Shown here piece after piece: positions 13,513 to 60,994 of a stretch of DNA of 64,000 nucleotides (position 1 is its first letter; every line of letters begins with the position of its first letter). Source of the DNA: Bacteroidales bacterium (GTDB lineage Bacteria; Bacteroidota; Bacteroidia; Bacteroidales; P3); NCBI GenBank assembly GCA_017469625.1, contig JAFUGA010000019.1, positions 1-64,000 of the forward strand, in the 5' to 3' direction. The notes under the pieces are model-generated. The model saw only the letters and a list, made by a program, of their open reading frames with translations. It ran no database searches and was not told the origin of the DNA. Both the position numbers and the translations under genes were made by a program.

Positions 13513-15006
13513 TCAGTCTAACGATATTACTTTTATACTTTCGTCTTTTAATTCTGACATCTGCACTCCTATAGGTGCACCTATATATGTTGGGTCTGCT
13601 ATATAATATTTCTTATCATTCACAAGTATGTAATCTCCTTTAACCTCTGGTGTGTCTAAACAGATAGCCGTTGCCAAATGGTTTGGATAGTAAATCAGCA
13701 CCGCTTTTATACCCAATAAATCTCTAACCAAACGAGAATACAATATAGCACGGTCTTCACAATCTGCATAAGGATAAAACAGGGTTTCCTCTGCAAAAAA
13801 TGCACGGTCTGTTCCCCAAACCGTATCATCATATTCATAAACCAAAGATGTTTGAACAAAATTCAACAGTATTTCTGCTTTTTCTTTCTTTGTTTTGCCC
13901 TGCAAGGATTTTTGCAAAGCAGGATACAGAGTTTCTTTTACCTCATCGCTCAAAGGAGCATTTGCATACATGGCCCAACGTGTTCCAAAGTCCCTATTTA
14001 TAGTAGAAGTCGGGTATTTATCGTAAAAATCTATCAAATTCTTATTCACCCTAACATTTGCCTTGACCTCAGGATAACGTTCCGATTTCAACTCTCTATA
14101 AGATGAAGTCTGTATGCTGAACAACGGTTGTTTTCTCAACTGAAAAGACATCTCTTTTTCCTGTGGAAAAGAAGCCTCGCATATTTTCACATATTCCAAT
14201 TTTTCTCCCTTATACAAATAGTACAAATCTGCATCTACTATAAAATAATCCACACCATAGACAATGCTTTTAGAGGAGTAAAGCATATAAAGTTTCTTAT
14301 CACTCTCAGCCAAACGCATCTTGTAACCACTTTGACAATAAAGATAAGCCATAAGCAAGGTGGCTTCATTGGATTGTCTGCCTATGATGTTTTCACTAAA
14401 CTTGTCCAACATCTGCAAATAAGCCCAATCGTTTAAAACATATTCTTCTCTCACTCTAAGACATTCATTGATAAGATGTTTATATTTAGACGAAGATAAG
14501 TTTTTCCAAGCCTCTGCTATATCTTTTGTCTCTACGCCTTGCAAAGAAAACTTATAATCATCAAAAAACGTTGTCCTTATATCCGTACCGTAAAACATAA
14601 AAGAAAAAGTCTGTTCTTTGTCATCGTCTTTCTTTTCTTCTTTTATAGGTTCTATAGGTTGAGGTTGTGGAGTTACGGGTTGTGGTTTTATAAACTCTTC
14701 TATAGGTTTTGCATTATCTTGTAAAGGAATGTTTTTCTCCTCTTCTGGCATGATAACAGGAGGAAGAGGTTTTTCTTCTTGCTGTACAAACGGTTCTTCA
14801 CCCTTATAGGTTTTCCAAGCACGCTCAACAAACTCCGCATAAGACTTATTAGCACTATCTCTAAAAGAATCATAATTCTCTTTTGCTTGTCTTTTAAATG
14901 CTTCATATTGTTCCCTTGCCTTTTTATTAAAAGGCTCTTTTTCCTGCTGTGCATTCACAGACCAAACCACAAAAGATATAAGTATAAATACTAAATGTTT
15001 TTTCAT
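13513..15006 (-). CDS. Exported transglutaminase-like (papain-fold) protein
   Basis: A 497-residue protein with a Sec signal peptide (residues 1-19, cleaved at VNA/QQ). A Glu/Lys-rich helical stretch (about 22-70) and a Pro/Glu-rich linker (about 75-130) follow. The C-terminal transglutaminase-like core has the catalytic triad candidates Cys416 (YADCEDRA), His443 (NHLATA) and Asp471 (ADPTY). The fold covers cysteine peptidases and transglutaminases, so the reaction is not certain. It is the last gene of the nine-gene operon, 10 bases after the WG-repeat/caspase gene. With the two caspase-like proteins it is the third exported cysteine hydrolase of the operon. Confidence 0.82.
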   Translation of the reverse strand: MKKHLVFILISFVVWSVNAQQEKEPFNKKAREQYEAFKRQAKENYDSFRDSANKSYAEFVERAWKTYKGEEPFVQQEEKPLPPVIMPEEEKNIPLQDNAKPIEEFIKPQPVTPQPQPIEPIKEEKKDDDKEQTFSFMFYGTDIRTTFFDDYKFSLQGVETKDIAEAWKNLSSSKYKHLINECLRVREEYVLNDWAYLQMLDKFSENIIGRQSNEATLLMAYLYCQSGYKMRLAESDKKLYMLYSSKSIVYGVDYFIVDADLYYLYKGEKLEYVKICEASFPQEKEMSFQLRKQPLFSIQTSSYRELKSERYPEVKANVRVNKNLIDFYDKYPTSTINRDFGTRWAMYANAPLSDEVKETLYPALQKSLQGKTKKEKAEILLNFVQTSLVYEYDDTVWGTDRAFFAEETLFYPYADCEDRAILYSRLVRDLLGIKAVLIYYPNHLATAICLDTPEVKGDYILVNDKKYYIADPTYIGAPIGVQMSELKDESIKVISLD

Positions 15007-15016
15007 GTTATTTATA

Positions 15017-16636
15017 TTATTTTATAAGTTTCAAATTTTTCCAAGATTGAGATAAAGATATGGACGGTATAACTGTAGGTGTTTGCAGTTTGTCATTTTC
15101 TGTTACTGATGTACGTTGAACTTGCTCTATTACATAATCAGAAAGGACACCTAAGGTTACGTCACCTTTTGTTTCCTTTAGTTTCTTTAAAAGAAAGTAA
15201 GTAAACATACCGTGTCCTTGTTCTTCGTATTGATGTGCCGTTTCGTCCCCTGAGGCAGAAGTAAAAACAACGACATTTCCTTTTGGTACTTCCTCTTTTA
15301 CTTTTATAGCAACACCTCGTCCTGTAAGCAAAATTTCATCTTCCCTTGTCGCACCTGAAAAACAAGCATCTATAAAACAAACGATGGATTTTATTTTTAC
15401 GCTACTTAATTCCTTATAAAGTTTATCTAAAGCATAACCTGTAGCCGTTATTTTGCTGTCTCCGTCAATAGGGAGCAGATAACCTGTGCTTCGTTGTTCA
15501 TCTGGGAAAGCATGTCCTGCATAATAGAAAATAATATTAGCATCACCGCCATACGCCTTGGCGACTTGTTTAATCTTTTCTACGCAAGCAACAATATTAT
15601 TTCCCGTTGCATTTTCGTAAAGATTGACTCTTTTTTCATTTATACCAAGTGTCTTTATGCAGTACTCTTTAAATATTCTACCATCATTCAAAGCATACGG
15701 TACTTTCTTCTGTGGATAATCCTCATTAGCGATGATAAACGCAAAGATATTATCATTAACTTTATTGACAAACGGTATTTGTTTATCTACATCAGACAAT
15801 AATTGTTGCCTTTTTCGTTGGTTATTTTGTGAAATAGATGAGATTATATTATTGTTATTAGGGTTGTTGTTATTAGAATCAATAGTGGAATTATTTACAG
15901 CAATATTCTCATCATTGCTATTTGGTCTTTTCAAAGGATTATCTATTGTTTGATAAAAACCATCTTTTTTTAGTTTTATTTTACCATTATCTTGAGTAAT
16001 ACCATCATATTCAAATTTTATAACAACATTACCTTCTGTATCGATACATCCCCATTTACCATCCTTTTTTATCTTGATAAGACCATCATTTATACTTGTA
16101 AAGAAAGCTGTTTTGGGAGAATCTTCAACCTCACGAAAATCAGTCAAAATACATACACCATGTCTATTGTAAAAATCATAATAACTTATTTTTACCATAA
16201 AGTATTCTGTATAACAAGTATAAATTACTACATTTGTATCCTCTGACAAATAATATGCTCTTTTTGATTCGATAGACGGTGGAAGTATCATATCTCCATT
16301 CGTGCTAATCAAACCATATTTTTTATTTTCTTTTATCAAAATGTAGTTTCCGCCATCCCAAAACACATCATCATATTTAGGAGGACATAATTCTCTACCG
16401 TCTTTATCGCATATACCATATTTTGATAATTTATTTCTAACTTTATAGTATTTTACACCGATTGAATAACTGTATTTTCCAGCTCTGGCATAGTTTTTCT
16501 GAAATTCTACTTTATGATATTTCTTTTTTAGTTCTTTTGTAACAGTTTTATTCTCTTTAAAGAAATAGTCTATCTGAGAATAAGATAAATTGCAAAAAAG
16601 TAATACGATAAATGTAATAATTATTTGTTTTTTCAT
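15017..16636 (-). CDS. Exported WG-repeat protein with C-terminal caspase-like (C14) protease domain
   Basis: A 539-residue protein. The signal peptide is residues 1-20 (LSYS/Q). WG-type beta repeats run about 60-235 (KYGICDKDGRELCPPKYDDV, KKYGLISTNGDMILPP, GKWGCIDTEGNVVIKFEYD). A low-complexity Asn/Ser linker follows (about 238-275, NNNNPNNNN), then a caspase-fold domain (about 285-539). The catalytic His375 is in YYAGHAFPD and Cys425 in FIDACFSG. Typical strands are FAFIIANEDY and NVVVFTSASGDETA. The C14 domain is a close paralogue of the one in the gene ending at 19228, even to the end (SWKNLKLIK versus KWRNLKLVK). The start overlaps the upstream stop (TAATG) with GGAG just before it. Confidence 0.9.
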   Translation of the reverse strand: MKKQIIITFIVLLFCNLSYSQIDYFFKENKTVTKELKKKYHKVEFQKNYARAGKYSYSIGVKYYKVRNKLSKYGICDKDGRELCPPKYDDVFWDGGNYILIKENKKYGLISTNGDMILPPSIESKRAYYLSEDTNVVIYTCYTEYFMVKISYYDFYNRHGVCILTDFREVEDSPKTAFFTSINDGLIKIKKDGKWGCIDTEGNVVIKFEYDGITQDNGKIKLKKDGFYQTIDNPLKRPNSNDENIAVNNSTIDSNNNNPNNNNIISSISQNNQRKRQQLLSDVDKQIPFVNKVNDNIFAFIIANEDYPQKKVPYALNDGRIFKEYCIKTLGINEKRVNLYENATGNNIVACVEKIKQVAKAYGGDANIIFYYAGHAFPDEQRSTGYLLPIDGDSKITATGYALDKLYKELSSVKIKSIVCFIDACFSGATREDEILLTGRGVAIKVKEEVPKGNVVVFTSASGDETAHQYEEQGHGMFTYFLLKKLKETKGDVTLGVLSDYVIEQVQRTSVTENDKLQTPTVIPSISLSQSWKNLKLIK

Positions 16637-18231
16637 TACTTCTCCTCCTCATTTTCTTGTCCATTTAATAGATTCACATCAACTTTGTTTTTTATATTAA
16701 CTGCCTGCCTCCAAAAGTCTTTTGTGGTAGAAATCTCATCAAATTTTGTATCAAGAATAACTTTATTTTTATCGTCATTATTTTCATCTTGAAGAATTTC
16801 ACACTCACATTGATATACCCTGCTGTTGTGGTCTGCTCCGAAAGAATTTTTCTCCAAATAAATCGTTAATTGTTTATTATCATCAAGCTCTCTTTGAGTG
16901 CATAACACATCATCAGATATAGATATAACAGTATTTACTAAAGAAAATCTTTTATTGCAAACAAGATGAAGGCTTACGTTTGGTTGATGTTCTGAATTTT
17001 GATTATTTTTACAAACAGAAGCCAATGCCGGTAAAAATAGAGTTTCGTTGCACAACATAGGAAAAGAATAATCCAGTTCTAATAAATCTAACATAAATAA
17101 TGAAACTCTATTATTGCAACAATTTTCTGTAAAACGCAAAACATATTCCTGCATCATATTTATAAACTCTGCCGGAGATACACAACCCATAGGGATTTCA
17201 AAAAACTGGAGATTAGGATTAGAAATCAAAGTATTATCAACATTATTTAAAACACTAATAAAACCACTTTTACTTTCATTGAATAAAACGACCAGACAAC
17301 GTTTTCCTTTCTCTAATGCTATAGATACGGAAAGGGCTGTTAAATATCTTTTAAAGGTATTTGATGCTCCAATTATACTGGTTACTTTACCAGATTTAGG
17401 ATATAAAACATTGTCTAAATTTATAACCTTAGATGTATTATTTTTCAAATTTTGGGGTTTGTAATTTTGTTCTCCGTCTAACAAAGTCTCAAACTGTGCT
17501 TTTATAGGTTTTATGTCTGAAAGTATTTTATGCACACTTGGATATACTTCTATTTTTCCATTATCCAAATGTTTGTATTTATGCCAACCGTGTGTTACAG
17601 ATTGAAAGATACTTTTTGAGATAGAAAGTTCATGGTAAGTATAATTGTGCGATTTATCAAAACTTCTTCTCATTTCAATGATAATATCTGCATTTGTGCT
17701 TTGATTTGTAAGTCTATCGTCAAATATTAGTATTGCTATTTTTGTTTTCTTTCTTAGGTTTTCTTCTAAAGCATTCAATGGTATAGTGTTAAACTCTTCT
17801 GTTGTCAGTCCTGCAAAACCATCTATAACAATACAAGCAAGTTTTTCTTTTAAATCTATATCGCTTATTTCTTGACTTATCTTTACAAATTGTACCAATT
17901 TGGATGACATATAAGTATTAGATTCGGTTTTGTCATTTCTAAATATCTCATCTAACACATTATTTGACAAACCTACTAATTTTTCATATTGTTCCTGTAT
18001 TTCGGTTCTATTCTTGTTTAGAGAATAAAAACGGCATGAATCTTCTTTATTTAAGGAACAGCAAACACCCTTCATTATATTCATAGCAAGATTAACCTTG
18101 CTTATCCCTCTCTGGCCTCTTATTACAATTAAAAGATTATCTGTATTTTTATTTATTTCAAAACCTTTTTTCTCTCCTAAAAGAGCATCAAAACCTGATA
18201 CTCCTGTTTTTATTGCTTCTCTTTTTTCCAT
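16636..18231 (-). CDS. Double KaiC/RecA-like ATPase with degenerate Walker A motifs
   Basis: A 531-residue cytoplasmic protein without a signal peptide. The opening (TGVSGFDALLGEKKGF then LLIVIRGQRGISKVNLAMNI) follows the KaiC pattern TGxxGLDxLLxGGxxxGxxxLxxGxxGxGKTTLA, but the P-loop reads GQRGISKVN, keeping Gly and Lys and losing the Thr. ACIVIDGFAGL is the Walker B strand and HGWHKYKHLDNGKIEVYPSVH resembles the end of a KaiC domain. A second domain (about 285-500) begins GKVTSIIGASNTFKRYLTALSVSIALEKG, again with an altered P-loop, and has SLFMLDLLELDY as its Walker B-like strand. It may bind nucleotide weakly or act as a scaffold. It sits between the SIR2-like and WG/caspase genes. Confidence 0.68.
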   Translation of the reverse strand: MEKREAIKTGVSGFDALLGEKKGFEINKNTDNLLIVIRGQRGISKVNLAMNIMKGVCCSLNKEDSCRFYSLNKNRTEIQEQYEKLVGLSNNVLDEIFRNDKTESNTYMSSKLVQFVKISQEISDIDLKEKLACIVIDGFAGLTTEEFNTIPLNALEENLRKKTKIAILIFDDRLTNQSTNADIIIEMRRSFDKSHNYTYHELSISKSIFQSVTHGWHKYKHLDNGKIEVYPSVHKILSDIKPIKAQFETLLDGEQNYKPQNLKNNTSKVINLDNVLYPKSGKVTSIIGASNTFKRYLTALSVSIALEKGKRCLVVLFNESKSGFISVLNNVDNTLISNPNLQFFEIPMGCVSPAEFINMMQEYVLRFTENCCNNRVSLFMLDLLELDYSFPMLCNETLFLPALASVCKNNQNSEHQPNVSLHLVCNKRFSLVNTVISISDDVLCTQRELDDNKQLTIYLEKNSFGADHNSRVYQCECEILQDENNDDKNKVILDTKFDEISTTKDFWRQAVNIKNKVDVNLLNGQENEEEK

Positions 18232-18238
18232 TGTGTTT

Positions 18239-19221
18239 TTATTTTTTATGGTTTATATCTTCAAAAAAATTCTTATATGTATCTATCTCTATTACCTTTA
18301 GATGATTTGCTGTGTGAAACATATTTTTTAGTTTTGTTAAAGTGTCTCCTTTCTTTGTAAGGTAATAGATATTTTCATTACTATCTTGTATATTTGCATG
18401 ATGAATAACTCTTTGCATAGTCATATCGGATAATGAGGCTCCTATATACAAGCAAGTATATTCTGAAAGATAAGATATTTGTTTGGTTTCGTGCCATGAA
18501 TATGGGTCTTTAGAGTTTTGATGAAATTCATCTAATGACATAACTACTTCATTCTTACCTATAGGTTTTAATTCGTATGGTGGTTGAATATATCCATGAA
18601 CATGATATATTCTAAACGATGAATCTGTATTTGGTTCCATCGTCCTTTGATTATACACATCTATAGGGGTAAATTCTTTGTTAATACATCTTTTACTATC
18701 TGCAATATAATCTTTATTACTCTGTAACAATTTTATTGCGGTAGAAAGAAAGTTGTCATAATTATAAGTAACTACCGCTTTAAAATTGTTATATCTAATT
18801 ATCATATCTGCAACAGAAAACAGTGAATAGAAATTACATTCTCCCCTTTCTACGTATATATTGCATTCATTTTTCAATTCATCTAAACTACACTGTGAAT
18901 ATATAATATCTTGCAATAATGGAATATAAGCAGTATTCAACAGTTGTTTCACTACAGATATTTTCATTTCAGAAGAAAATTCTGAATTGCCTCTTAGTAA
19001 TAATTCACGATTGGTACTATTTGGATTTAATGCTTGTTTTAGAAAATTTATTTCTTCTTCTGGCATATTTAGTAGATGTAGTGCGTTATTTAAAAATGCC
19101 TGCATAACATCGCTCCAAAGCAATTTTTTGGTTGGATTGTAATTTATTCCTGCACCTATAAATAAGATAATCTGTTTACCTTGTTCTAAATCTTTTTTAG
19201 ATTTTCTAAATTCTTATCCAT
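18239..19221 (-). CDS. SIR2-like (NAD-hydrolase-type) protein, open only through a -1 shift at A_AAA_AAG
   Basis: A SIR2-fold protein of about 327 residues if the two frames are joined. The NAD-binding opening IILFIGAGIN, the TYNYDNFL strand with the catalytic-type Asn, the HVHGYI His motif, VMSLDEFHQ and LYIGASLSDMTMQRVIHHA are all present, as in SIR2 effectors of bacterial defence systems. The frame holding IGAGIN has no ATG between its upstream stop and the motif. The in-frame ATG (19221), 6 bases after the previous stop, leads to MDKNLENLKK and then TAG at 19188-19186. The two frames meet at A_AAA_AAG (19198-19192), a classic -1 slippery heptamer in the correct phase. One missing A in the assembly would also explain it. 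A start at the internal ATG 19123 would lose the NAD-binding motif. Confidence 0.75.
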
Positions 19222-19227
19222 AACCTT

Positions 19228-21222
19228 TCATTTTACAAGTTTTAAATTACGCCATTTGTTTTGCATAATGGAAGACGAAGTAATAGATGGAGTTTGTCGT
19301 TTTTGTATTTTGTTTACAGAATGCAATTCTACTTGTTTAGTAACATAGTCCGATAATTGTCCAAGAGTACATTTACCCTTAGAATCTTTTAGTTTCTTTA
19401 AAAGAAAATATGTAAACAATCCATGCTCTTTTTCCATATAAGGCATAGCCGTTTGGTCTGCTGTAGAAGCAGAGAATACTATTATATTCCCTTCTAAATG
19501 ACTTTTTGTTGGAGCAATAGCCACACTCCTCGCCGATGCTATCATTCCTTCTCCTCTTTGAGAACCAGAGAAACAAGCATCAAGAAAAACAAAAACATTC
19601 TTTGCCCGTAAAGAAGATAGTTCTGAATAAAGTTTATTTACGTTGTATGATGTATTGGTATTGCCTACATAAGCATCTACAGGAACAAGATATGCTTCTT
19701 TTGTTTGTTCGTCAGGAATACCATGACCAGCATAATAGAAAATAACGTTATTTATCTCATTAACCTCATCAAGCTCTTTCAATCGTCCAATAGCATAGTT
19801 CATATCATTCAACGTTGCGTCCTTTATGAAGATAATATGATTTTCATCATTAGGAATACCCAATGTTTTAGTGCAATACTCCTTGAATGCTCTACCATCT
19901 TTTTCTGCCAAATAAACATTACTTTCTATTCTATTATAAACTTCGTTGGCTATGATAATAGCATAGGTTGTACCATTGATGATATTATTTATTGGTATAT
20001 CCTTATCTACATCTGAATTCAGAACAAGAGAACCATTCTTATTATTTATCCTCTTTTTCTCTTTCTCATTTATAACTATCTTATTGTTTGCAAAGTTTTG
20101 ATTTAGATTCAGCAAAATATCTTTATCTTGTGAATATTTTCCATATTTTTCTTTTACTCTAACTTTAAAAGGCACTGAATTTCCTTGATAATCCATTTTT
20201 ATAGCAAGAGTATAAACCAAAGATTTTATTTCTCCCGGTTCCATATAACCTATATTTCCTATAGTTTCACTTGAAGAAGAATAAACATCATCTGGTTTTA
20301 CCAAATCTACAACAACGTTTTCTGCTTTACCTACACCTGTATTTTGCAATACTATCTGCAAATCAAATTGTTCTTTTTTTCTTAAGGTTGTAGAACCTTT
20401 TATATCGCTTGTTATATTGTAGTCGGCTACTTGCACAAATGGATTTTCAAATCTTTTCGTTGTTACTTCTATAGTTCTTGGTTCTGTACCAAATCCTAAA
20501 GGCTCTTTTACATTTATAGTAAAAGCCACACTACCATCTACAGTGTTCATGCCTGAGAAAATGGGTACAGTTATTTTTTGTCTTTCACCAGATTTTATTA
20601 CAGAAACATTTGTTGATGAAATGTATATATCTTGAATATCTCCTTTTGTTTCAGTTATTACTTTGCAACCATATGCATTTCCTTTTCCTTTATTGATAAC
20701 CTCAAACGATATACTACACTGTTCGTCTGCATCTATAGCATCATTTCCTGTTTTGTCTTCAAATATAAAGGAATTCTCCACAAAATAAAGATTTGGTGGT
20801 TCTTTAGACCTCAACACATCTATATTATTTATCCTAAGGTCTCCTCCTATATAGGCTACTGTTTGCACATCGTAAGGTATGCGTTCAAAATAAAGACTAT
20901 ATTCTTTGCTTTCTCTTGGATTTAGAGGATATGAACGATTTGGCATAATTGCGTCTGTACCTATTATCTTTAGTATTTGTCCATTATCGCAAAGAAGTTT
21001 TATATCTTTATTCAAAGCTATAGACATTTTACGTGTAGACATATTTTCAAGTTCGCAATTAACTTTCGTTACTTCTTTCCCTTTGTTATTTTCTACATAA
21101 GAAATACTTTTTATAGTAAGTTTCAAAGGATATTTTTCTATGCTCTCATTTATATCTATCAACTGTGCATTGACCAACAATGAACATATAGAAAACAATA
21201 AAAATAATATTTTCTTTTTCAT
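19228..21222 (-). CDS. Exported CARDB-like/caspase (C14) protein
   Basis: A 664-residue protein. The signal peptide is residues 1-19 (VNA/Q). Two or three beta-sandwich domains of CARDB/NEW3 type follow (about 30-375; for example ISFEVINKGKGNAYGCKV and QIVLQNTGVGKAENVVVDL). The C-terminal caspase domain spans about 405-664, with His500 in YYAGHGIPD and Cys550 in FLDACFSGSQR. YAIIIANEVY and GNIIVFSASTADQTA are the usual core strands. The catalytic domain is paralogous to that of the gene at 15017-16636, but the N-terminal modules differ. It is the fifth gene of the operon, 6 bases after the barrel gene. Export suggests action in the periplasm or at the surface. Confidence 0.9.
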   Translation of the reverse strand: MKKKILFLLFSICSLLVNAQLIDINESIEKYPLKLTIKSISYVENNKGKEVTKVNCELENMSTRKMSIALNKDIKLLCDNGQILKIIGTDAIMPNRSYPLNPRESKEYSLYFERIPYDVQTVAYIGGDLRINNIDVLRSKEPPNLYFVENSFIFEDKTGNDAIDADEQCSISFEVINKGKGNAYGCKVITETKGDIQDIYISSTNVSVIKSGERQKITVPIFSGMNTVDGSVAFTINVKEPLGFGTEPRTIEVTTKRFENPFVQVADYNITSDIKGSTTLRKKEQFDLQIVLQNTGVGKAENVVVDLVKPDDVYSSSSETIGNIGYMEPGEIKSLVYTLAIKMDYQGNSVPFKVRVKEKYGKYSQDKDILLNLNQNFANNKIVINEKEKKRINNKNGSLVLNSDVDKDIPINNIINGTTYAIIIANEVYNRIESNVYLAEKDGRAFKEYCTKTLGIPNDENHIIFIKDATLNDMNYAIGRLKELDEVNEINNVIFYYAGHGIPDEQTKEAYLVPVDAYVGNTNTSYNVNKLYSELSSLRAKNVFVFLDACFSGSQRGEGMIASARSVAIAPTKSHLEGNIIVFSASTADQTAMPYMEKEHGLFTYFLLKKLKDSKGKCTLGQLSDYVTKQVELHSVNKIQKRQTPSITSSSIMQNKWRNLKLVK

Positions 21223-21228
21223 TATCTT

Positions 21229-21858
21229 TTATTTGTATATTTGTTTCTTAAACTGATTTTTCAATCCTTTAGTTATTCCCCAAGATGGTCTTCCTAATTC
21301 CCAAGAAAGAGTTATTTGTAAGGAATTATGCCCAGCATAATGATGACCATTTCTTTTAACATAAAGTTCTCTATCCATAAAATGATAAACATACCTTAGA
21401 CCCAAAACTATTCTATTTGCTGTTTTTCCTACATAGAAAGGATTTGATTTCCATTTTAAACCTATAGGTATCCCCACAGTAAAATCATATTCTGCTTCAA
21501 TAGGTATATCTAACATCAATCCTGTTTCTAAAGTAAAGTTTTTTGTATTTGCTTGTAATAGAAGTGGAATATGAAGTTCATAATTATCATTAGTATTAGT
21601 CCAGTCAAATAATGTTTCTATCTGTATACCAAACCAAGAATTAAATTTTTCTGTATAATAAATTCCATAAAGAACACTCTCTTTTACTTCGTTTAAAGGG
21701 TCTGTTCCGAAAGTAAATCCTAAATACCCTTTAGTTTCTTGTTTGTTATTTACAATTGTAGACTTCTCTTCTTCAAATATATATTCCTGTGCTACAAGTG
21801 TAGAATATACAAAAAAGAAGACTACTAAACATAATACATATTTTATTGTTTTTTTCAT
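21229..21858 (-). CDS. Outer-membrane beta-barrel-like protein, copy 2
   Basis: A 209-residue protein with a signal peptide (about residues 1-23, LVAQ). The rest is rich in alternating aromatic/polar strands typical of small outer-membrane barrels (YLGFTFGTD, IVLGLRYVYHF, HNSLQITLSWELGRPSW). It is a tandem paralogue of the next gene upstream. The two share NPFYVGKTANRI, GIPIGLKWKS and AGHNSLQ. It might assemble with the LPP20/DUF4384 proteins of the operon in the envelope. That is inference from position. Confidence 0.65.
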   Translation of the reverse strand: MKKTIKYVLCLVVFFFVYSTLVAQEYIFEEEKSTIVNNKQETKGYLGFTFGTDPLNEVKESVLYGIYYTEKFNSWFGIQIETLFDWTNTNDNYELHIPLLLQANTKNFTLETGLMLDIPIEAEYDFTVGIPIGLKWKSNPFYVGKTANRIVLGLRYVYHFMDRELYVKRNGHHYAGHNSLQITLSWELGRPSWGITKGLKNQFKKQIYK

Positions 21859-21870
21859 CGTTTTAATACT

Positions 21871-22485
21871 TTAAAGATTTTTTATTATATTTTTTAAATT
21901 CCATGATTTTCTGCCCAATTCCCAAGAAAGTGTTAATTGTAGAGAATTATGACCAGCATTCAATTGCCTGTTTAACGCACCAGAATAGAAATAATATCTC
22001 TCACTAAAATGAAAAACATACCTTAAACCTAAACCTATTCTGTTTGCGGTTTTACCTACATAAAAAGGATTTGATTTCCATTTTAATCCTATAGGTATCC
22101 CCATAGTAAAATCATATTCTGCCCTATAAATACCTCTATCTAATATCAATCCTGTTTCAAGTGTAAAATGTTTTCTACTAAATTGTAACAAAAAAGGAAC
22201 ATGAAGTTCTATTGGCTTATTCCATGCAAAACAATATTCAAATAAAGCCTCTATTTGTACACCAAACCAAGTGTTATATTTTCCTGCATAATACAGCCCC
22301 AAAAGGATGTCATCATCTTCTTCATTTGTAACATTACTTCCTACAGCAAGTCCAAAACTACCATAAATTTCATTATTTGTTGTTACAGTTTTCTCGTCTT
22401 CAAAAGTATATTCTTGTGCTGTAAGTGTATTTACACAAAAGAATAATACAATGCACAGTGTTATTTTTATTATAATGTTTTTCAT
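21871..22485 (-). CDS. Outer-membrane beta-barrel-like protein, copy 1
   Basis: A 204-residue protein with a signal peptide (LFFCVNTLTAQ, about residues 1-23) and the same strand pattern as the following gene (YGSFGLAVGSN, FTLETGLILD, IGLGLRYVFHF, LQLTLSWELGRKSW). Both start with a short acidic segment, EYTFEDEK or EYIFEEEK, right after the signal peptide. Its ATG overlaps the stop of the DUF4384 gene (ATGA). No specific family is assigned. Confidence 0.65.
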   Translation of the reverse strand: MKNIIIKITLCIVLFFCVNTLTAQEYTFEDEKTVTTNNEIYGSFGLAVGSNVTNEEDDDILLGLYYAGKYNTWFGVQIEALFEYCFAWNKPIELHVPFLLQFSRKHFTLETGLILDRGIYRAEYDFTMGIPIGLKWKSNPFYVGKTANRIGLGLRYVFHFSERYYFYSGALNRQLNAGHNSLQLTLSWELGRKSWNLKNIIKNL

Positions 22486-23363
22486 TTCTTATTTATTTCT
22501 ATTAGATGTTTATTTACTTTTATATCTCTATCTTTCGTTTGACACGAGATTAACCATTTTTGAAAATCTTTAAACGACAGTTGTCTTGGTAAATATTCTC
22601 CTTTGATTTTTGAACCGTTGGCTTTAGAAAAATTATTAGGAGAGAATATTACATAAACTTCATTATATTCTATCTCTTTTGTGCAAGTAATATAAAGATT
22701 GCCCTCTATGTAATCATAATCGGGTTGATTGCTATCCTGTGGGTCAAAAAACAGATAAAGTGTATCGTGTTTGATTTTTATAGTACCATTAGGTGAATTT
22801 CTATATGGTAATAAACAAAATACCTCTTGTGCCTCTCTATCTAAAAGATATACACAAAGCCAACCATCACTTGCTGAAAGGAAAGAAAGGTATAGATAAT
22901 CTCCTGCTCTAAACTTATTGCTTTCATATCTACCATCTGTTCCATTACACAACACCTTTGAAGTAAATTCTGTAGTGTTTGTTATTTTTTTCGCTTTACC
23001 ACAAACTTTGGCTATACATATAAACATATTGTCTTTTGTATAAAAAGAGACTTGAGGTTCTTTTGTATCTTCTATCCATTCACCTTGAACATTACTACCA
23101 CCTATAGAAATAAAATCAGAAGAAGATTCTCCGTTCTTATTACTTGTAATAACAGTAGTATTGGTTTGGTATACGGTTTGGTTAAACTCTTTTATAAGAC
23201 CCTCTATTCTCGCACGATTTATAGCCGTTTGTTTTGCTTGTTCTGGGCTTACAGTTGATGGATAATAATAAGTATATTCCCCGCATACATCAACTATTTT
23301 TTGTGCTGAGCATACGGAAAATATACCTATATATAATATGAATATAACAAAGATGTTTTTCAT
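22482..23363 (-). CDS. Exported DUF4384-domain protein with LPP20-like N-terminus
   Basis: A 293-residue protein. The signal peptide is residues 1-20 (CSAQ). An N-terminal segment of the LPP20/FlgT-type pattern follows (EYTYYYPSTVSPEQAKQTAI then NRARIEGL). A DUF4384 domain then runs from about 150 to 235 (FRAGDYLYLSFLSASDGWLC, VYLLDREAQEVFCLLPY). DUF4384 is repeatedly found beside, or fused to, bacterial caspase-like proteases, which fits this operon. The start overlaps the upstream stop (TAATG). The role is unknown, perhaps a sensor or scaffold in the periplasm. Confidence 0.78.
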   Translation of the reverse strand: MKNIFVIFILYIGIFSVCSAQKIVDVCGEYTYYYPSTVSPEQAKQTAINRARIEGLIKEFNQTVYQTNTTVITSNKNGESSSDFISIGGSNVQGEWIEDTKEPQVSFYTKDNMFICIAKVCGKAKKITNTTEFTSKVLCNGTDGRYESNKFRAGDYLYLSFLSASDGWLCVYLLDREAQEVFCLLPYRNSPNGTIKIKHDTLYLFFDPQDSNQPDYDYIEGNLYITCTKEIEYNEVYVIFSPNNFSKANGSKIKGEYLPRQLSFKDFQKWLISCQTKDRDIKVNKHLIEINKK

Positions 23364-24046
23364 TATTTTATACCCATAATTTTATCTAACTGTTCGTGTA
23401 AATCTTCACCTTTCTTTTCAAGTTCTTCTTTGATTATATTTTTTGTTACTTTCATTGCAGTGTCTGTATCATAGGCAAGTCTTACAAGAACTTCTTTGTT
23501 TTTATTTGGTTTTACTCTATACAGTTCTACTACAGGTATTGTTCTACCTAAACTTTGAGAAATAAGATTGGTACTTGCAGTAACAATTTCTGTTATAGAA
23601 GCAGCTTGTTCCTGCCCTAATTCATTATTTGCTAAAGTAGTTTTTATCAAAGCAGTTACCTCTGTTTGTATTTGACCAGCAAGATTTTGTTTTGCTATCT
23701 CTGATGCTTGAAGTTTTGCAGCGTCATACGTTTCACCTATACTCATACCCTCCGCCATTATGTATTTAGGCATCATATTTTTGTCTATCTCATATTGTAG
23801 ATTATAAGACCTATCCAATTGCTTATCTATTGGCAATCCTCCCGGAGAAACTAACCAACCTTCTTTTTTCAATCGTTTTGCTTCCTTTCTTGCAACTTTA
23901 GATGCTTTGGCGTTTAACTCACTTTTTGTCATCTTAGACATTTCTTTTCTTTCTTTTTCTTGTTCTTTCGTTAGTTGTGCAAAAGATGGCATACTAACTA
24001 AAGAAATAAACATACAAACAAGAATACTTTTTACTGTTTTATTCAT
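23363..24046 (-). CDS. Exported LPP20-like protein, first gene of the caspase/SIR2 operon
   Basis: A 227-residue protein with a signal peptide (about 1-23, SFAQ). A Lys/Glu-rich helical region follows (about 24-65), and then an LPP20-like domain (about 90-200; GMSIGETYDAAKLQASEIAKQNLAGQI, VVELYRVKPNKNKEVLVRLAYDTDTA). It begins the nine-gene operon. No TAnnTTTG promoter is seen in the 100 bases before it. The nearest one is at 24298-24305, beyond a terminator hairpin and a G-tract leader ORF. Confidence 0.7.
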   Translation of the reverse strand: MNKTVKSILVCMFISLVSMPSFAQLTKEQEKERKEMSKMTKSELNAKASKVARKEAKRLKKEGWLVSPGGLPIDKQLDRSYNLQYEIDKNMMPKYIMAEGMSIGETYDAAKLQASEIAKQNLAGQIQTEVTALIKTTLANNELGQEQAASITEIVTASTNLISQSLGRTIPVVELYRVKPNKNKEVLVRLAYDTDTAMKVTKNIIKEELEKKGEDLHEQLDKIMGIK

Positions 24047-24146
24047 AATAATTTGTGTCTTGTTATAAAGTCATCAGACATCATCGCTTTTAATTATTAC
24101 TATTTATTTTGTTATTAAATATTTAATTATTATTTTTCAAATAAAA

Positions 24147-24184
24147 AACGCATATAAAAGCCTGTTAAAGCCTTTATATGCGTT
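24147..24184 (-). terminator. Terminator hairpin inside the operon leader
   Basis: A perfect 12-bp stem (AACGCATATAAA at 24147-24158, complement at 24173-24184) with a 14-base loop is followed on the minus strand by TTTTTTAT. It lies 100 bases before the start codon at 24046 and after the leader ORF, so it can act as an attenuator. Confidence 0.8.
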
Positions 24185-24207
24185 AATAAATTGTTAAAAG
24201 GTTGTTA

Positions 24208-24270
24208 TTAAGTTGTACCCCCCCCCACCATATAATTTGCTAATAATAAAATACTTACACTTCTTTTCAT
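24208..24270 (-). CDS. Leader peptide ORF ending in a G9 tract
   Basis: A 20-codon ORF that begins MKRSVSILLLANYM and ends VGGGTT, closed by two TAA codons. AGGAG lies 8 bases before the ATG and a TAACTTTG promoter box is about 28 bases upstream. The Gly codons come from nine consecutive G (24226-24218). With nine G the stop is 24 bases before the terminator stem. With ten it is about 10 bases before. With eight or eleven it is TAA at 24185-24183, inside the stem. No homologue is recognised. The second leader near 60900 ends similarly (NYMGGG). Confidence 0.55.
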   Translation of the reverse strand: MKRSVSILLLANYMVGGGTT

Positions 24271-24297
24271 CTTTTTAACTCCTATTATAAAACTTTG

Positions 24298-24305
24298 CAA
24301 AGTTA
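24298..24305 (-). promoter_or_regulatory. Promoter -7 box of the nine-gene operon leader
   Basis: TAACTTTG on the minus strand matches TAnnTTTG exactly. The expected -33 position holds only a T-rich stretch. Transcription would begin near 24290, pass the leader ORF and meet the hairpin at 24184-24147. Confidence 0.65.
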
Positions 24306-24329: not shown

Positions 24330-25211
24330 TTATATCTTTTCCATTTCTTCTTTACTTAGACCTGTTGCTTGCATAATTGCAGAAATATCTAAATTCATAG
24401 CCTTTAGATTTTTCGCAATCTCCAAGGATTTTCGTTTTTCTCCCTCTGCTCTACCTTTGATTTTGCCCTCTAAAATTCCTTCTAATCTACCTTTTAGTTC
24501 TGCATCTTCGGTTATGTTGTTTATATCTCTAAAGGCAGAAATATCTGCTTCAAATGCAAGAAGATTATCTTCTTTTAGTCGTTCTATTTCTGCATGTCTA
24601 AACAAGGTGGTAAATATTCTCTCTTGCAGTGCAGCAGGTTTTGAAAGTAGTTTTGACATATTATTTAAAACAAACAACCATTTATCATACATAGTTACAA
24701 GTTCGTTTTCTGTCTTTTTGAATTTTGGTAACTCTATTGTAATAAAGGTAAGTTTATCGTAAAAGACTTCGTATGTTGTAGCGTCCCTCAACTGTGCTGT
24801 ATGCTTTACCTGTTCATCTTCGTGGTTAAAGACAAAGTTAAGTATTCCTATTGTATATACATGATTTAGTTTGTAGTTCCAATCTGTGCCTTTCTTTGCC
24901 TGTTCTCTTATTGGAAAGGTAGAATAATATATCATTCTATCTTTAAAGAATGGTTGAAAGAAATTCTGCATTTCTACTATAAACCTTTCACCTGTATCTG
25001 TAACGCAATAAACGTCAAATATTGCCTTACGTGAAGGATAGGACGAAGATTGTTTCTCTGTATTCTTATAAGTAATATCTTCTATATTATGTGTTCCCTC
25101 AAACAATGCATTGAGAAAAGAAAGAAGATATTGCTTATTCATTTCATCTCCGAAGATATACTTAAACCCAAAATCTGTGTATGGGGTTATATATTTTTGG
25201 TCTATTTCCAT
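24330..25211 (-). CDS. PD-(D/E)XK nuclease family transposase-like protein (Rpn/PDDEXK_2 type)
   Basis: A 293-residue protein of the family often annotated as 'PD-(D/E)XK nuclease family transposase' or Rpn-like. The start YITPYTDFGFKYIFGDEMNK is family-typical. The catalytic pattern is IFDVYCVTDTGERFIVEMQ (D ... E-x-Q) at about residues 64-83. The C-terminus has a Lys/Glu-rich segment with repeated EGKIKGRAEGEKRKSLEIA and ends in a short helix pair (MNLDISAIMQATGLSKEEM). It carries its own promoter. No terminal repeats were seen around it. Confidence 0.88.
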   Translation of the reverse strand: MEIDQKYITPYTDFGFKYIFGDEMNKQYLLSFLNALFEGTHNIEDITYKNTEKQSSSYPSRKAIFDVYCVTDTGERFIVEMQNFFQPFFKDRMIYYSTFPIREQAKKGTDWNYKLNHVYTIGILNFVFNHEDEQVKHTAQLRDATTYEVFYDKLTFITIELPKFKKTENELVTMYDKWLFVLNNMSKLLSKPAALQERIFTTLFRHAEIERLKEDNLLAFEADISAFRDINNITEDAELKGRLEGILEGKIKGRAEGEKRKSLEIAKNLKAMNLDISAIMQATGLSKEEMEKI

Positions 25212-53271: not shown

Positions 53272-55041
53272 ATGAAAATGAAAAATATATTAAAACATCT
53301 TTCCGTTCCTATTATAAACCAAATATCGTTTTTCTTAATCTGTTTCACCCTTTTGGTTTTTCCAGCCATTGCAAGAAAAGAACTCTTTGATATAAGTTTC
53401 TTTTCTACTATATTTTTAGAAGTTTCCACTGTCCTATTTATCTCATACATACTTACTTGTATTGTATATGTTTTCAAAAACAAGATAGTGAAAATACTTC
53501 TCTACAGTTTGACTATAGCCATTTTTATTTTTTGGTTGTTTTTGAAAGTAGTAATGAATCTGACTATTACTCCTATGATTTTAATAGTTCTTTTGGAAAC
53601 CAACTCCAAAGAATCCTCTGAATTTATTCATAATGTTCTACTTAGCAAACAATCTATATTTGTCTTATTATCTTTTCTTGGTATAATTACTGCAACATAT
53701 TTTTTAGAGAAATATAGAAGTCGTATATCCACATATATTTTGCGTTTTATACCCTCTAAAATACGTTATACTTCTCTTTATTTGCTATTTATAACAATTT
53801 TATGGGGGGGGGGATTTTTAGCAAATACAACCCACAAACTTTATCATGCCGATGATAAAAGAATAGATAAATTAGATATTAAATATTTTCATTGGAGAAA
53901 TCCCATAGTAAAACTGCTTTTTGCTTTCAAAGGTCTTAATATTATAGAACAACAGATACAGACTTCTTTTCAAACAAATATCAGGGTTTCAAAAGAAAAA
54001 ACCAAAGTGCTTTCACAGGAAGATATAAACATAATTGTAGTTATAGGTGAGTCGTTTATAAAGCATCATTCTTCTTTGTATGGTTATTACTTGCAGACAA
54101 ATCCTTTTTTAGAAAAAGAAAAACTTAATGGTAATTTGTTCGTTTTCAACGATGTTATAACTACTGCTTCCAGAACTTCAGAATCCCTAAAAAATCTTTT
54201 CTCCTGCAATTCTTATTCTTTAGGAGAATCTTTTTCAAACTTTCCTTTATTTACAGTTGTTTTTAAATCAGCAAATTATAATGTGTATATGTGGGACAAT
54301 CAAACAGATTTCGCTTCTACACAATTTGCAACTGCCACACTAAACTCTTTCCTTTACAACAAGGATATTTACTCTATTTCTTACACTCAAACCAACAATA
54401 AAACCTTTGCTTATGATAAAGATTTGATAAAAGATTTCAAACATCAACAACTTGCAAATCAAGGAAATAATCTTCTCATCTTTCATCTTATGGGACAACA
54501 TAATGAAGCCCAAGAAAGATTTCCAAAGTCGTTTGCCAAATTTTCTTACAAGGATATAAAACATTTTGCCAACTATCTAAACCAAGAGAAAATGCAAATG
54601 ATAGCCGACTATGACAATGCTACACTTTATAACGATTATGTCTTAGAACAAATCATTGATTTATACAGGGATAAAAATACTGTAATCATTTATTTTTCAG
54701 ACCACGGAGAAGAAATGTTTGATTATAGAGATGCACATTTCAGACCTGGCTGTTTGGGGGATTGGTACAACTTTTTGAAATATCAATACGAAGTTCCATT
54801 TTTCATTTGGTGTTCAGATAAATACAAAGAACTTCACTCTGAAACCATCAAACAAATAAACGATGCGGTGAATAAACCTTTTGCTATTGATAATCTTTGC
54901 CATATTTTGTTCTATTTTGCAAATATAGATACAAAATATTATAAACAAGAACGTAATATATTGACTGATAAGTATAAACCTGTAGATAGAATGACCGATA
55001 ACAAAATAAATTACGACTCCGTTATGAGAACGAAACACTAA
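53272..55041 (+). CDS. EptA-like phosphoethanolamine transferase (sulfatase fold) with an in-frame G10 tract
   Basis: A 589-residue inner-membrane protein with about five N-terminal hydrophobic helices (residues 1-185) and a periplasmic alkaline-phosphatase/sulfatase-type domain (about 255-560). The nucleophile region is IIVVIGESFIKHHSSLYGY, metal-site segments are MGQHNEAQ, YFSDHGEEMFD and HFRPGC, and ITTASRTSESL matches the EptA family. It would add phosphoethanolamine to lipid A or another glycolipid. Codons for Leu-Trp-Gly-Gly-Gly-Phe near residue 178 contain ten consecutive G (53804-53813). A gain or loss of one G would truncate the protein before the catalytic domain. Confidence 0.87.
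   Translation: MKMKNILKHLSVPIINQISFFLICFTLLVFPAIARKELFDISFFSTIFLEVSTVLFISYILTCIVYVFKNKIVKILLYSLTIAIFIFWLFLKVVMNLTITPMILIVLLETNSKESSEFIHNVLLSKQSIFVLLSFLGIITATYFLEKYRSRISTYILRFIPSKIRYTSLYLLFITILWGGGFLANTTHKLYHADDKRIDKLDIKYFHWRNPIVKLLFAFKGLNIIEQQIQTSFQTNIRVSKEKTKVLSQEDINIIVVIGESFIKHHSSLYGYYLQTNPFLEKEKLNGNLFVFNDVITTASRTSESLKNLFSCNSYSLGESFSNFPLFTVVFKSANYNVYMWDNQTDFASTQFATATLNSFLYNKDIYSISYTQTNNKTFAYDKDLIKDFKHQQLANQGNNLLIFHLMGQHNEAQERFPKSFAKFSYKDIKHFANYLNQEKMQMIADYDNATLYNDYVLEQIIDLYRDKNTVIIYFSDHGEEMFDYRDAHFRPGCLGDWYNFLKYQYEVPFFIWCSDKYKELHSETIKQINDAVNKPFAIDNLCHILFYFANIDTKYYKQERNILTDKYKPVDRMTDNKINYDSVMRTKH
53804..53813 (+). repeat. G10 tract inside the EptA-like gene
   Basis: Ten G in a row within an AT-rich gene, preceded by ATTTTAT. 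The frame is open in the assembled length. Long G tracts are classic slippage sites for on/off phase variation. Confidence 0.8.
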
Positions 55042-55310: not shown

Positions 55311-58300
55311 CTATTTTTTGATAAGTTTTTCGGTGCGGTTGATTGTATCGGTTACTATTCTTATGTAATATACTCCACTTGCAAGAGTTGATGTTTCTAT
55401 CTTAATAGTGTTTTCTCCTTGTGCAAGTCTTGTTTCTTTGATTGTTCTGCCTTGAACATCTGTTACATAGATTGTAGCATCTGAATTTATTCCTTCAACT
55501 CTTAACATAGCATCTTCTGTTGTAGGATTTGGATAAAGCATTACTCTTATTCCGTTTTCTACATCGTTTATGCCACTGTTGATTGTCAAGTTCAATGTTA
55601 CTGTACTGTCGCAACCGTTTATGTCTGTGAATACCTCAGTATATGTTCCTTCTGTTTCCAAAACTTGTGTTCCGAATTGGTAAGGAAGTTCGTCTGGGTT
55701 GATTGTTACATTTACAGTGTTATTGTTTTCTGGTCTTACAACTAATGTTACTGTGTAAAGAGTATCACATTCATTTCCTTGACCAGCAACAGTTACTGTA
55801 TTTTCACCCTCTGTTAATGTTTGACCATTGAACTCTGCTGTTTCTCCATAGCATACTGTTATTGTTTCTGTTGCAGTGTTCTGTGCATTAACTGTTAGGT
55901 TTATAGTGTAATTTGTATCGCATTCGCCATTAACTCCTGATACAGTTGTTTGATATGTTCCTGTTGCGTTGTAAGTATTTCCGTTGAATGTAAATGTTTC
56001 ACCATAGCAAACAGTTTCATTAAGAGTTGCTGTTGCAGGAGTGCAAGGTTCTTCGCCTTGTTCAAGAGTTGTGAATGTTACTTCTTCACCATATTGAGTA
56101 CCATTACCTGTTGTAGCAAAGGCTCTATATGTGTAAGATGTATTTGCTGTCAATCCTGTTAGGTTGGCTGTCATTGTTGTTCCTGTTGCTGAAACTGTTG
56201 TATATGTGCCACCTACTGTTGCTTTCCATTCAAATCCTCTTGCTGTTATTGTTTGGTTGCCTACTTCTGTTATTGCACCGTTAAGTGTTGCTGTTGTTTG
56301 GGTAATTCCTGTTGCAACATTTGTTACTACTGTTGGTTCTATTGGTGTAGGAGGGTTATCTGTATTATCAAAGATACTTATATCATCTATTCCTATACCG
56401 TGTCCATAGTGTAAAGCTGCAAGGAATGATATTTGAATAGGTTCACTTTCTGTTGGTAAATCAACCGTGTAGTATGTCCATTCTTCTGAATTATTTACTC
56501 CTGTTAGATAATTCCAAGTGTCATCTGTCGTTGTTCTATAATAAACAGCCAATGTATCTTGGTCTGGTGACCAATACTTGTTTATACAAGCAAATTTTAA
56601 CTGTGGTTCAGAAAGTCCGCTTATATCAAACATCGGAGAAATCAAACGATTATAATGCCAATCGTCATTATCATCGTATCCTATGAATGCAAAAGCATTT
56701 CCTTCTGGATTATCCATATAATCTAAGTCTGAATCAAATTCTCCATCTCGGTAGTTTTCATAATCTGTTGTCCAAACGTAAGAAACATCTGAATTTTCTT
56801 CTGACCAACAACCGAAACCATATTCAAATCCTTCCGTATAAGTAAAGTTTGAGATAGTTCCACAAGCCGTAGTAAATGCTCTTGTCGTTTCTATAGAATT
56901 TTCATCTTCACAAACTCTTGCAATTTTTATCGTATAGATAGTACTTGCCTCAAGGTTTTCTAATAAATATGTTTCTCCATTTATTGTACCTTCATCTGTC
57001 CAATCTTCATCGCTTGACTGTTTGTACTTTAATGTATATTCTCCTTCATCTGGTAGATTGATAATTGCAGAATTATCCAAAATATTTGTAACTGTTACAT
57101 CAGGTATAGAACAAGGACCACCACCTATTGCTACATTGGTAACTACAAGGGCTGGAGCACCATCTGTAACTGAACCATCATTGTTCCATAAAAAGACAAG
57201 TTTTGCATAACCATTGGTTGAAGGATTTTCTACATCAAATGACATGTGTACAATATTGTTGTTTGTAAGTGAATATGTATAAGGATAATCGCTTATCTCA
57301 GCATTACTAAATGAATCATATGCTAAAAAATTCAATGCGTTGGTTGAATAACTATTATTTGCATAAGAAGGTTGTGAAGTCGATGCTGGAAAATCTGAAG
57401 TTGCAGGTGCAAAGAATACTTTCATATAATCAAATTGGTCTTCTCCTCCAACTACAACATCAAATTCTATGTGTATTTGTTCTGCATCGCCTACATTGAA
57501 CAATTTTTCTGCTGTAACGTATGAAGGAGTCTCTTCATTATATCCTGCTGTTGTTCCATCATTTGTTACGTACATAGCAGTGTAGCCTGAAGTTGTTCCC
57601 ATTACCCAATAATTCTGACAAGTACTATTGTTTAATAACCAACCTCTATCTCCGGTTTCTTCATCACCAGAAAAATCTGTAGAATAAGGTATATCTACTG
57701 GTAGCATAATAGTAGAAAACTGCAATACCCCCCATCCTGACATTCCGTCTTCATCTCCACAATTTGCTTGTAATTCCACCTGATAGTTATGAGTGGATAA
57801 CAAATCTTCTATAGTGTAAGTATTTTCACCTGATACTTCTATATCTTCTTCTATGTATTCAGTACTTCCTTGTAGTTTGTATCTTAGATTATAACTTTCT
57901 GCAAATCCTGTCCAAGAAATTGTTGCACTTTCTGCTGTAACGTCTTCTATGGTTACAACAGGTATAGGACAGGTAACAGGTGTTGTAAAGGATAAAACAC
58001 TCGATTGTGGTGTCGTCTCTCCGCATATTGCTTGTATATAATAACTGTATGTCGTTTCTGAAAGAAGGTCCTCTAATGCAACATTCCAAGTGTTTTCTTC
58101 TTCTCCTGCTTCAAATGTTACATCTGCTTCTATATATTCTGTATCTGTAGGTGTCTTGTAATAAAGAGCAAATTCTTCTCCTGTGGATGCAAAACTTATA
58201 TTTACACTTCTGCTACTTGTGAATGTAGTTGATACATTAGCAGGACGAGAACACTCCGGTATAACTTCCAATGTAACATCATCTACTAACCATCCCCAGC

Positions 58301-60792: not shown

Positions 60793-60834
60793 ATCCCTGT
60801 CATTCAGCATTTAATGATGTTGAAAAACAGGGAT
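60793..60834 (-). terminator. Terminator hairpin in the adhesin leader
   Basis: ATCCCTGT (60793-60800) pairs with ACAGGGAT (60827-60834), with further imperfect pairing inside. On the minus strand TTTTTG follows. It lies 128 bases before the adhesin start codon and after the leader ORF. Confidence 0.75.
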
Positions 60835-60875: not shown

Positions 60876-60932
60876 TTACCCCCCCCCCATATAATTGTAT
60901 ATCAACGTATTATGATAGTAATTGTCTTCCAT
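60876..60932 (-). CDS. Short leader ORF ending in a G10 tract
   Basis: An 18-codon frame, MEDNYYHNTLIYNYM then GGG and TAA, where the glycines come from ten consecutive G (60888-60879). No AGGAG precedes the ATG, so translation is less certain than for the leader at 24208-24270, but the ending Asn-Tyr-Met-Gly-Gly-Gly and the surrounding ATTATATGG are shared. With nine or twelve G the frame stops at 60844-60842, just before the hairpin. With eight or eleven it stays open through the 5' arm of the hairpin to TAA at 60813-60811. Confidence 0.4.
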   Translation of the reverse strand: MEDNYYHNTLIYNYMGGG

Positions 60933-60962: not shown

Positions 60963-60994
60963 CAAAGATAGAGTTTTTTCATAAATCTACCAAA
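60963..60994 (-). promoter_or_regulatory. Promoter of the adhesin leader
   Basis: On the minus strand TTTG, 20 bases, TATCTTTG. This is a near-perfect Bacteroidota promoter. Transcription should start near 60956, upstream of the leader ORF and hairpin. The rest of the 858-base gap 60666-61524 holds repeat locus F and AT-rich sequence in which nothing else is recognised. Confidence 0.75.

Follow-up and report, generated by a model that had tools for sequence, protein, structure and literature searches.

Predicted slippery-tract leader switches in front of surface-protein and defence-like genes throughout a Bacteroidales genome

A nine-gene operon in a Bacteroidales bacterium (assembly GCA_017469625.1, contig JAFUGA010000019.1) is preceded by a promoter box, a very short open reading frame that runs into a tract of nine G, and an intrinsic terminator that stands between this reading frame and the first gene. 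This arrangement raises the question of whether gain or loss of a G could decide where a ribosome stops, and thereby whether transcription passes the terminator. In order to answer this, we examined the leader in the window (the whole stretch of DNA that was analyzed, 64,000 nucleotides), searched the rest of the genome and related genomes for leaders of the same build, and compared the arrangement with described systems. The results are most consistent with phase variation by translation-coupled attenuation, which we consider likely, although tract-length mixing within a population, translation of the mini-ORF, and ribosome-blocked termination are inferred.

Anatomy of the leader

All parts of the leader are present on the minus strand (Table 1), with AGGAG lying just upstream of the mini-ORF. 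The original prediction that the three tract frames stop well before the stem, closer to it, or inside it is exact. However, the stem scored by the terminator scan, with 17 pairs when GU is allowed, 5 GC pairs, and a loop of 4, is longer than the 12 bp first proposed. The hairpin has a predicted energy of -20.4 kcal/mol and a T-rich tail, and no TAnnTTTG box, the consensus for Bacteroidota promoters (PMC7366714), lies between the terminator and the first gene. A search for known structured RNA families gave no Rfam match in the window at gathering score.

A second leader is present in the same window (60970-60793) and precedes a large surface protein. The window also contains a conventional in-gene phase switch, a G10 tract inside the coding frame of a sulfatase-family protein, which is in frame as assembled.

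Table 1. Coordinates of the leaders and associated features in the window
Position	Strand	Feature	Remarks
24298..24305	-	Bacteroidota -7 promoter box of the leader	TAACTTTG
24208..24270	-	Leader mini-ORF, 20 codons plus stop with G9	MKRSVSILLLANYMVGGGTT; ATG at 24270; tandem TAA at 24210-24205
24218..24226	-	Slippery tract of nine G	
24208..24210	-	Stop codon used with G9	23 nt before the stem; predicted OFF
24194..24196	-	Stop codon used with G7 or G10	9 nt before the stem; predicted intermediate
24183..24185	-	Stop codon used with G8 or G11	TAA; reaches 2 nt into the stem; predicted ON
24147..24184	-	Intrinsic terminator hairpin, followed by a T-rich tail	Predicted attenuator
23363..24046	-	First gene of the controlled operon	No family match
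13513..24046	-	Nine-gene operon	Two proteins without Pfam or NCBIfam match, two similar secreted-type proteins, caspase-domain protein, SIR2-like protein, unassigned protein, WG-repeat plus caspase protein, unassigned protein
24330..25211	-	Rpn-type PD-(D/E)XK putative transposase	Directly upstream of the leader
60963..60970	-	Promoter box of the second leader	TATCTTTG
60879..60888	-	G10 tract of the second leader	ORF MEDNYYHNTLIYNYMGGG from 60932; predicted OFF, ON with G9
60793..60834	-	Terminator hairpin of the second leader	
55311..60665	-	Gene controlled by the second leader	1784-aa fibronectin type III / MAM surface protein with a Por secretion tail
53272..55041	+	Sulfatase-family protein, 589 aa (Pfam PF00884)	Looks like a membrane phosphoethanolamine transferase
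53804..53813		G10 tract inside the sulfatase-family gene	In frame as assembled

A genome-wide family of leaders

A search of the 2.37-Mb genome (65 contigs) with the leader sequence identified an 89% identical copy on contig 19 (C19:18158) and several shorter matches. The genome holds 53 tracts of seven or more G, and reading these in the G direction showed about 30 leaders of the same build, with a promoter box, a short ORF that ends in the tract, a hairpin with a T run, and then a gene on the same strand. The sequences fall into at least 12 families with unrelated peptides. The original prediction was made without knowledge of this family.

To determine whether this layout could arise by chance, we applied four tests. 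The first examined the association of the parts with the strand of the tract. A TAnnTTTG box lies 60-112 nt upstream of 30 of 53 tracts on the G strand, with a sharp peak at 60-100 nt, compared to 4 of 53 on the C strand, and a hairpin followed by a T run lies downstream of 30 compared to 2. The box and hairpin go together (Fisher p = 1.4e-5), although five boxed tracts lack a hairpin in the scan. Second, a mini-ORF of at least eight codons runs open into the tract in 28 of 29 boxed leaders, whereas dinucleotide shuffles give 4.8. Third, in all 25 leaders with a measured stem, and in all 12 family representatives, at least one tract frame stops 19 nt or more before the stem and at least one reaches it (null means 17.5 and 7.6, respectively). 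None of 200 shuffles reached these values (p < 0.005), and stops between -10 and +5 of the stem number 24 against 10.6 expected. By chance about one of three frames would be open anyway, and the excess is in having both classes in every leader. Finally, a TAnnTTTG box between terminator and gene was found in only 3 of 31 leaders (one could not be evaluated), whereas 27 of 34 divergent gene starts in the same DNA have such a box upstream, so the leader promoter is most likely the operon promoter.

These tests bear on the possibility that the leaders are independent phase-variable small genes, each encoding a functional short peptide followed by its own terminator, with a separate promoter for the downstream operon. 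In support of this, the mini-ORFs form recurring families (VNIILLENYMGG, NLPF), terminators follow them directly, and the C19 copy and two other leaders do have a box after the terminator. In the C19 copy this box is TACCTTTG, and that copy may therefore not control the next gene. However, most leaders have no second box, the peptide sequences differ completely between families while the geometry is kept, and the next gene follows on the same strand about 100-240 nt after the tract in nearly all cases. We consider this explanation unlikely. It is even less likely that the leaders are decayed or repetitive copies of a mobile element without a regulatory role. Although the window leader has its copy at C19 with unrelated flanks and one family has about ten copies, at least 12 unrelated sequence families share one anatomy with open frames, terminators, and same-strand genes, which decay would break. 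Two near-identical G8/G9 elements without mini-ORF or hairpin (C11:42670 and C30:54643) lie within 300 bases of contig ends and perhaps mark the border of a collapsed repeat.

The range of the design was examined with one strict pattern. The genome G000 gave 20 hits and its reversed control none, while other species of the genus gave 0-3, the rest of the family rarely one, and 395 genomes spread over the phylum only background. Tracts of the genomes G009, G177, and G006 include further leaders with hairpins, so the system belongs to this genus and is most developed here. The related species G009 also carries another family of tract elements (CCTATAA.ATATTAA...CCCGCCCGCATA then G9-G11 then ATTTTT; five loci, L307, L310, L313, L315, and L321) without a box in the searched range. 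A G15 tract with a similar promoter and mini-ORF (MNTTLLKLNNIKPPCDILWGGGG) in G156, from another genus of the family, suggests rare use outside the genus. No similar leader was found in a plasmid collection.

Tract length, cassette boundaries, and targets

Tract lengths were compared between copies and between species. Eight paralogous leaders with upstream flanks 90-99% identical have tracts of 7, 8, 8, 9, 9, 9, 10, and 11 G. Between the two related species G006 and G002, four of four orthologous tracts differ in length (9/12, 16/11, 8/9, 9/10), although the flanks are 77-99% identical. These differences are consistent with slippage, but in the absence of read data, mutability within one population is inferred. 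The assembled lengths put 7 of 24 assignable leaders in a stem-reaching frame, close to one third.

The window leader and its C19 copy are 84% and 96% identical upstream and downstream of the tract, and identity falls to about 55% beyond the promoter and beyond the terminator, indicating that the cassette of promoter, mini-ORF, tract, and terminator is the unit that is shared. In G010, a species of the same genus, the operon is present in essentially the same order. The first two genes, the SIR2-like gene, the large unassigned gene, the caspases, and the last gene are about 38-70% identical, with the orthologue of the first gene at 70%, while the two small secreted-type genes were not found in the stretch. 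Here TAACTTTG lies 40 nt before the start codon, with neither tract nor terminator. The leader was therefore added to, or lost from, an operon that can run from an ordinary promoter.

Genes directly behind leaders include several surface proteins of about 1000-2100 aa (the two tested showed fibronectin type III repeats and a Por secretion tail), BspA-type LRR proteins, small putative lipoproteins, a DarT-domain protein followed by a macro-domain protein, a SIR2-like protein followed by an nSTAND1 protein, a ResIII helicase (PADLOC type IV restriction model, 3.5e-43), and M48 and VWA proteins, in addition to the caspase operon of the window. This operon, with two caspase-domain proteins, a SIR2-like protein, and a large unassigned protein that looks KaiC/RecA-like, may be a conflict or defence system. 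Elsewhere in the genome, G11, G11, and G9 tracts (L119 on C58, L053 on C1, and L037 on C5) lie at or in the start of capsule-type and AMP-binding-type genes, named by inspection, indicating in-gene phase variation.

Proposed mechanism and comparison with known systems

On the basis of these results, the leader is best explained as a phase-variable transcription attenuator. RNA polymerase would start at the TAACTTTG promoter and a ribosome would translate the mini-ORF, with the frame after the G tract, set by tract length modulo 3, deciding where the ribosome stops. With the assembled G9 the ribosome releases before the terminator, the hairpin forms, and transcription is predicted to end near 24143, leaving the operon OFF. 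With G8 or G11 the ribosome stops inside the stem base, the hairpin cannot form, and the operon is predicted to be ON, while G10 or G7 is probably partial. Gain or loss of a G by slipped-strand mispairing would flip the state heritably and reversibly. The original prediction of G-tract slippage, translation-coupled antitermination, and an assembled OFF state is supported. However, translation of the mini-ORF rests on open frames only, as a synonymous-change test in the NLPF group did not settle it (p = 0.09), and tight coupling of translation and transcription is not established for this organism.

An effect of tract length directly on RNA or DNA, through RNA folding, polymerase slippage, or promoter spacing, was also considered, as G tracts can affect polymerase and homopolymers in promoters switch genes in other bacteria. 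This appears improbable, as the tract lies 60-100 nt downstream of the box and not between promoter elements, and such an effect would not explain the mini-ORFs or the frame geometry. Additionally, folding showed the same predicted terminator for G8, G9, and G10, so the effect, if real, must come through the reading frame.

About 30 leaders in at least 12 sequence families would switch many operons independently, so that single cells carry different combinations of surface and defence-like genes. It is more likely than not that these form a whole-genome set of independent, modular attenuators in one Bacteroidota lineage, whose cassettes have been placed in front of unrelated operons, including anti-phage-like ones, and that a clone diversifies into a very large number of expression states by ribosome-controlled transcription termination. 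Such use would make this a general strategy in Bacteroidota, would allow predicted ON/OFF states of many genes to be read from tract lengths in sequencing reads, and would imply that translation stays close enough to transcription in these bacteria to control termination. In the papers found, phase variation through a leader peptide and attenuation is documented for pilus loci of one Streptococcus species and a close relative, and a 2025 review of phase variation does not mention attenuation, leader peptides, or terminators. The principle is known, whereas the G homopolymer, the phylum, the number of loci, the modular cassette, and the defence-like targets were not found in the open-access literature searched, which is not proof of novelty.

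The closest described systems are the pil1 and pil3 leader peptides of Streptococcus gallolyticus (PMC3894217), in which a promoter, a leader ORF with a repeat inside, and a premature intrinsic terminator precede a surface operon. In these the OFF frame stops well upstream of the hairpin and the ON frame stops within 4 bp of it or inside it, and for pil1 mutants in the start codon and terminator confirmed the mechanism. The repeat there is a GCAGA pentanucleotide in two pilus loci of a Gram-positive, and OFF isolates stop at least 28 nt before the hairpin, compared to 23 nt here. The present leaders use a G homopolymer and a Bacteroidota promoter type, are dispersed in many sequence families, and have targets that include defence-like operons. 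In amino-acid operon attenuators of the trp leader type, the position of a ribosome on a leader peptide likewise decides whether a terminator forms, but the signal is charged tRNA, whereas here no regulatory codon run is seen and the signal would be a heritable tract length. Homopolymer contingency loci of Neisseria, Campylobacter, and Helicobacter also use mononucleotide tracts as on/off switches by frameshift, although the tract usually lies in the gene itself or in the promoter, while here it lies in a separate leader ORF and is proposed to act on transcription. Finally, the invertible promoters of Bacteroides provide phase variation of surface genes in the same class of bacteria, but by DNA inversion through a recombinase, with no repeat tract or attenuator.
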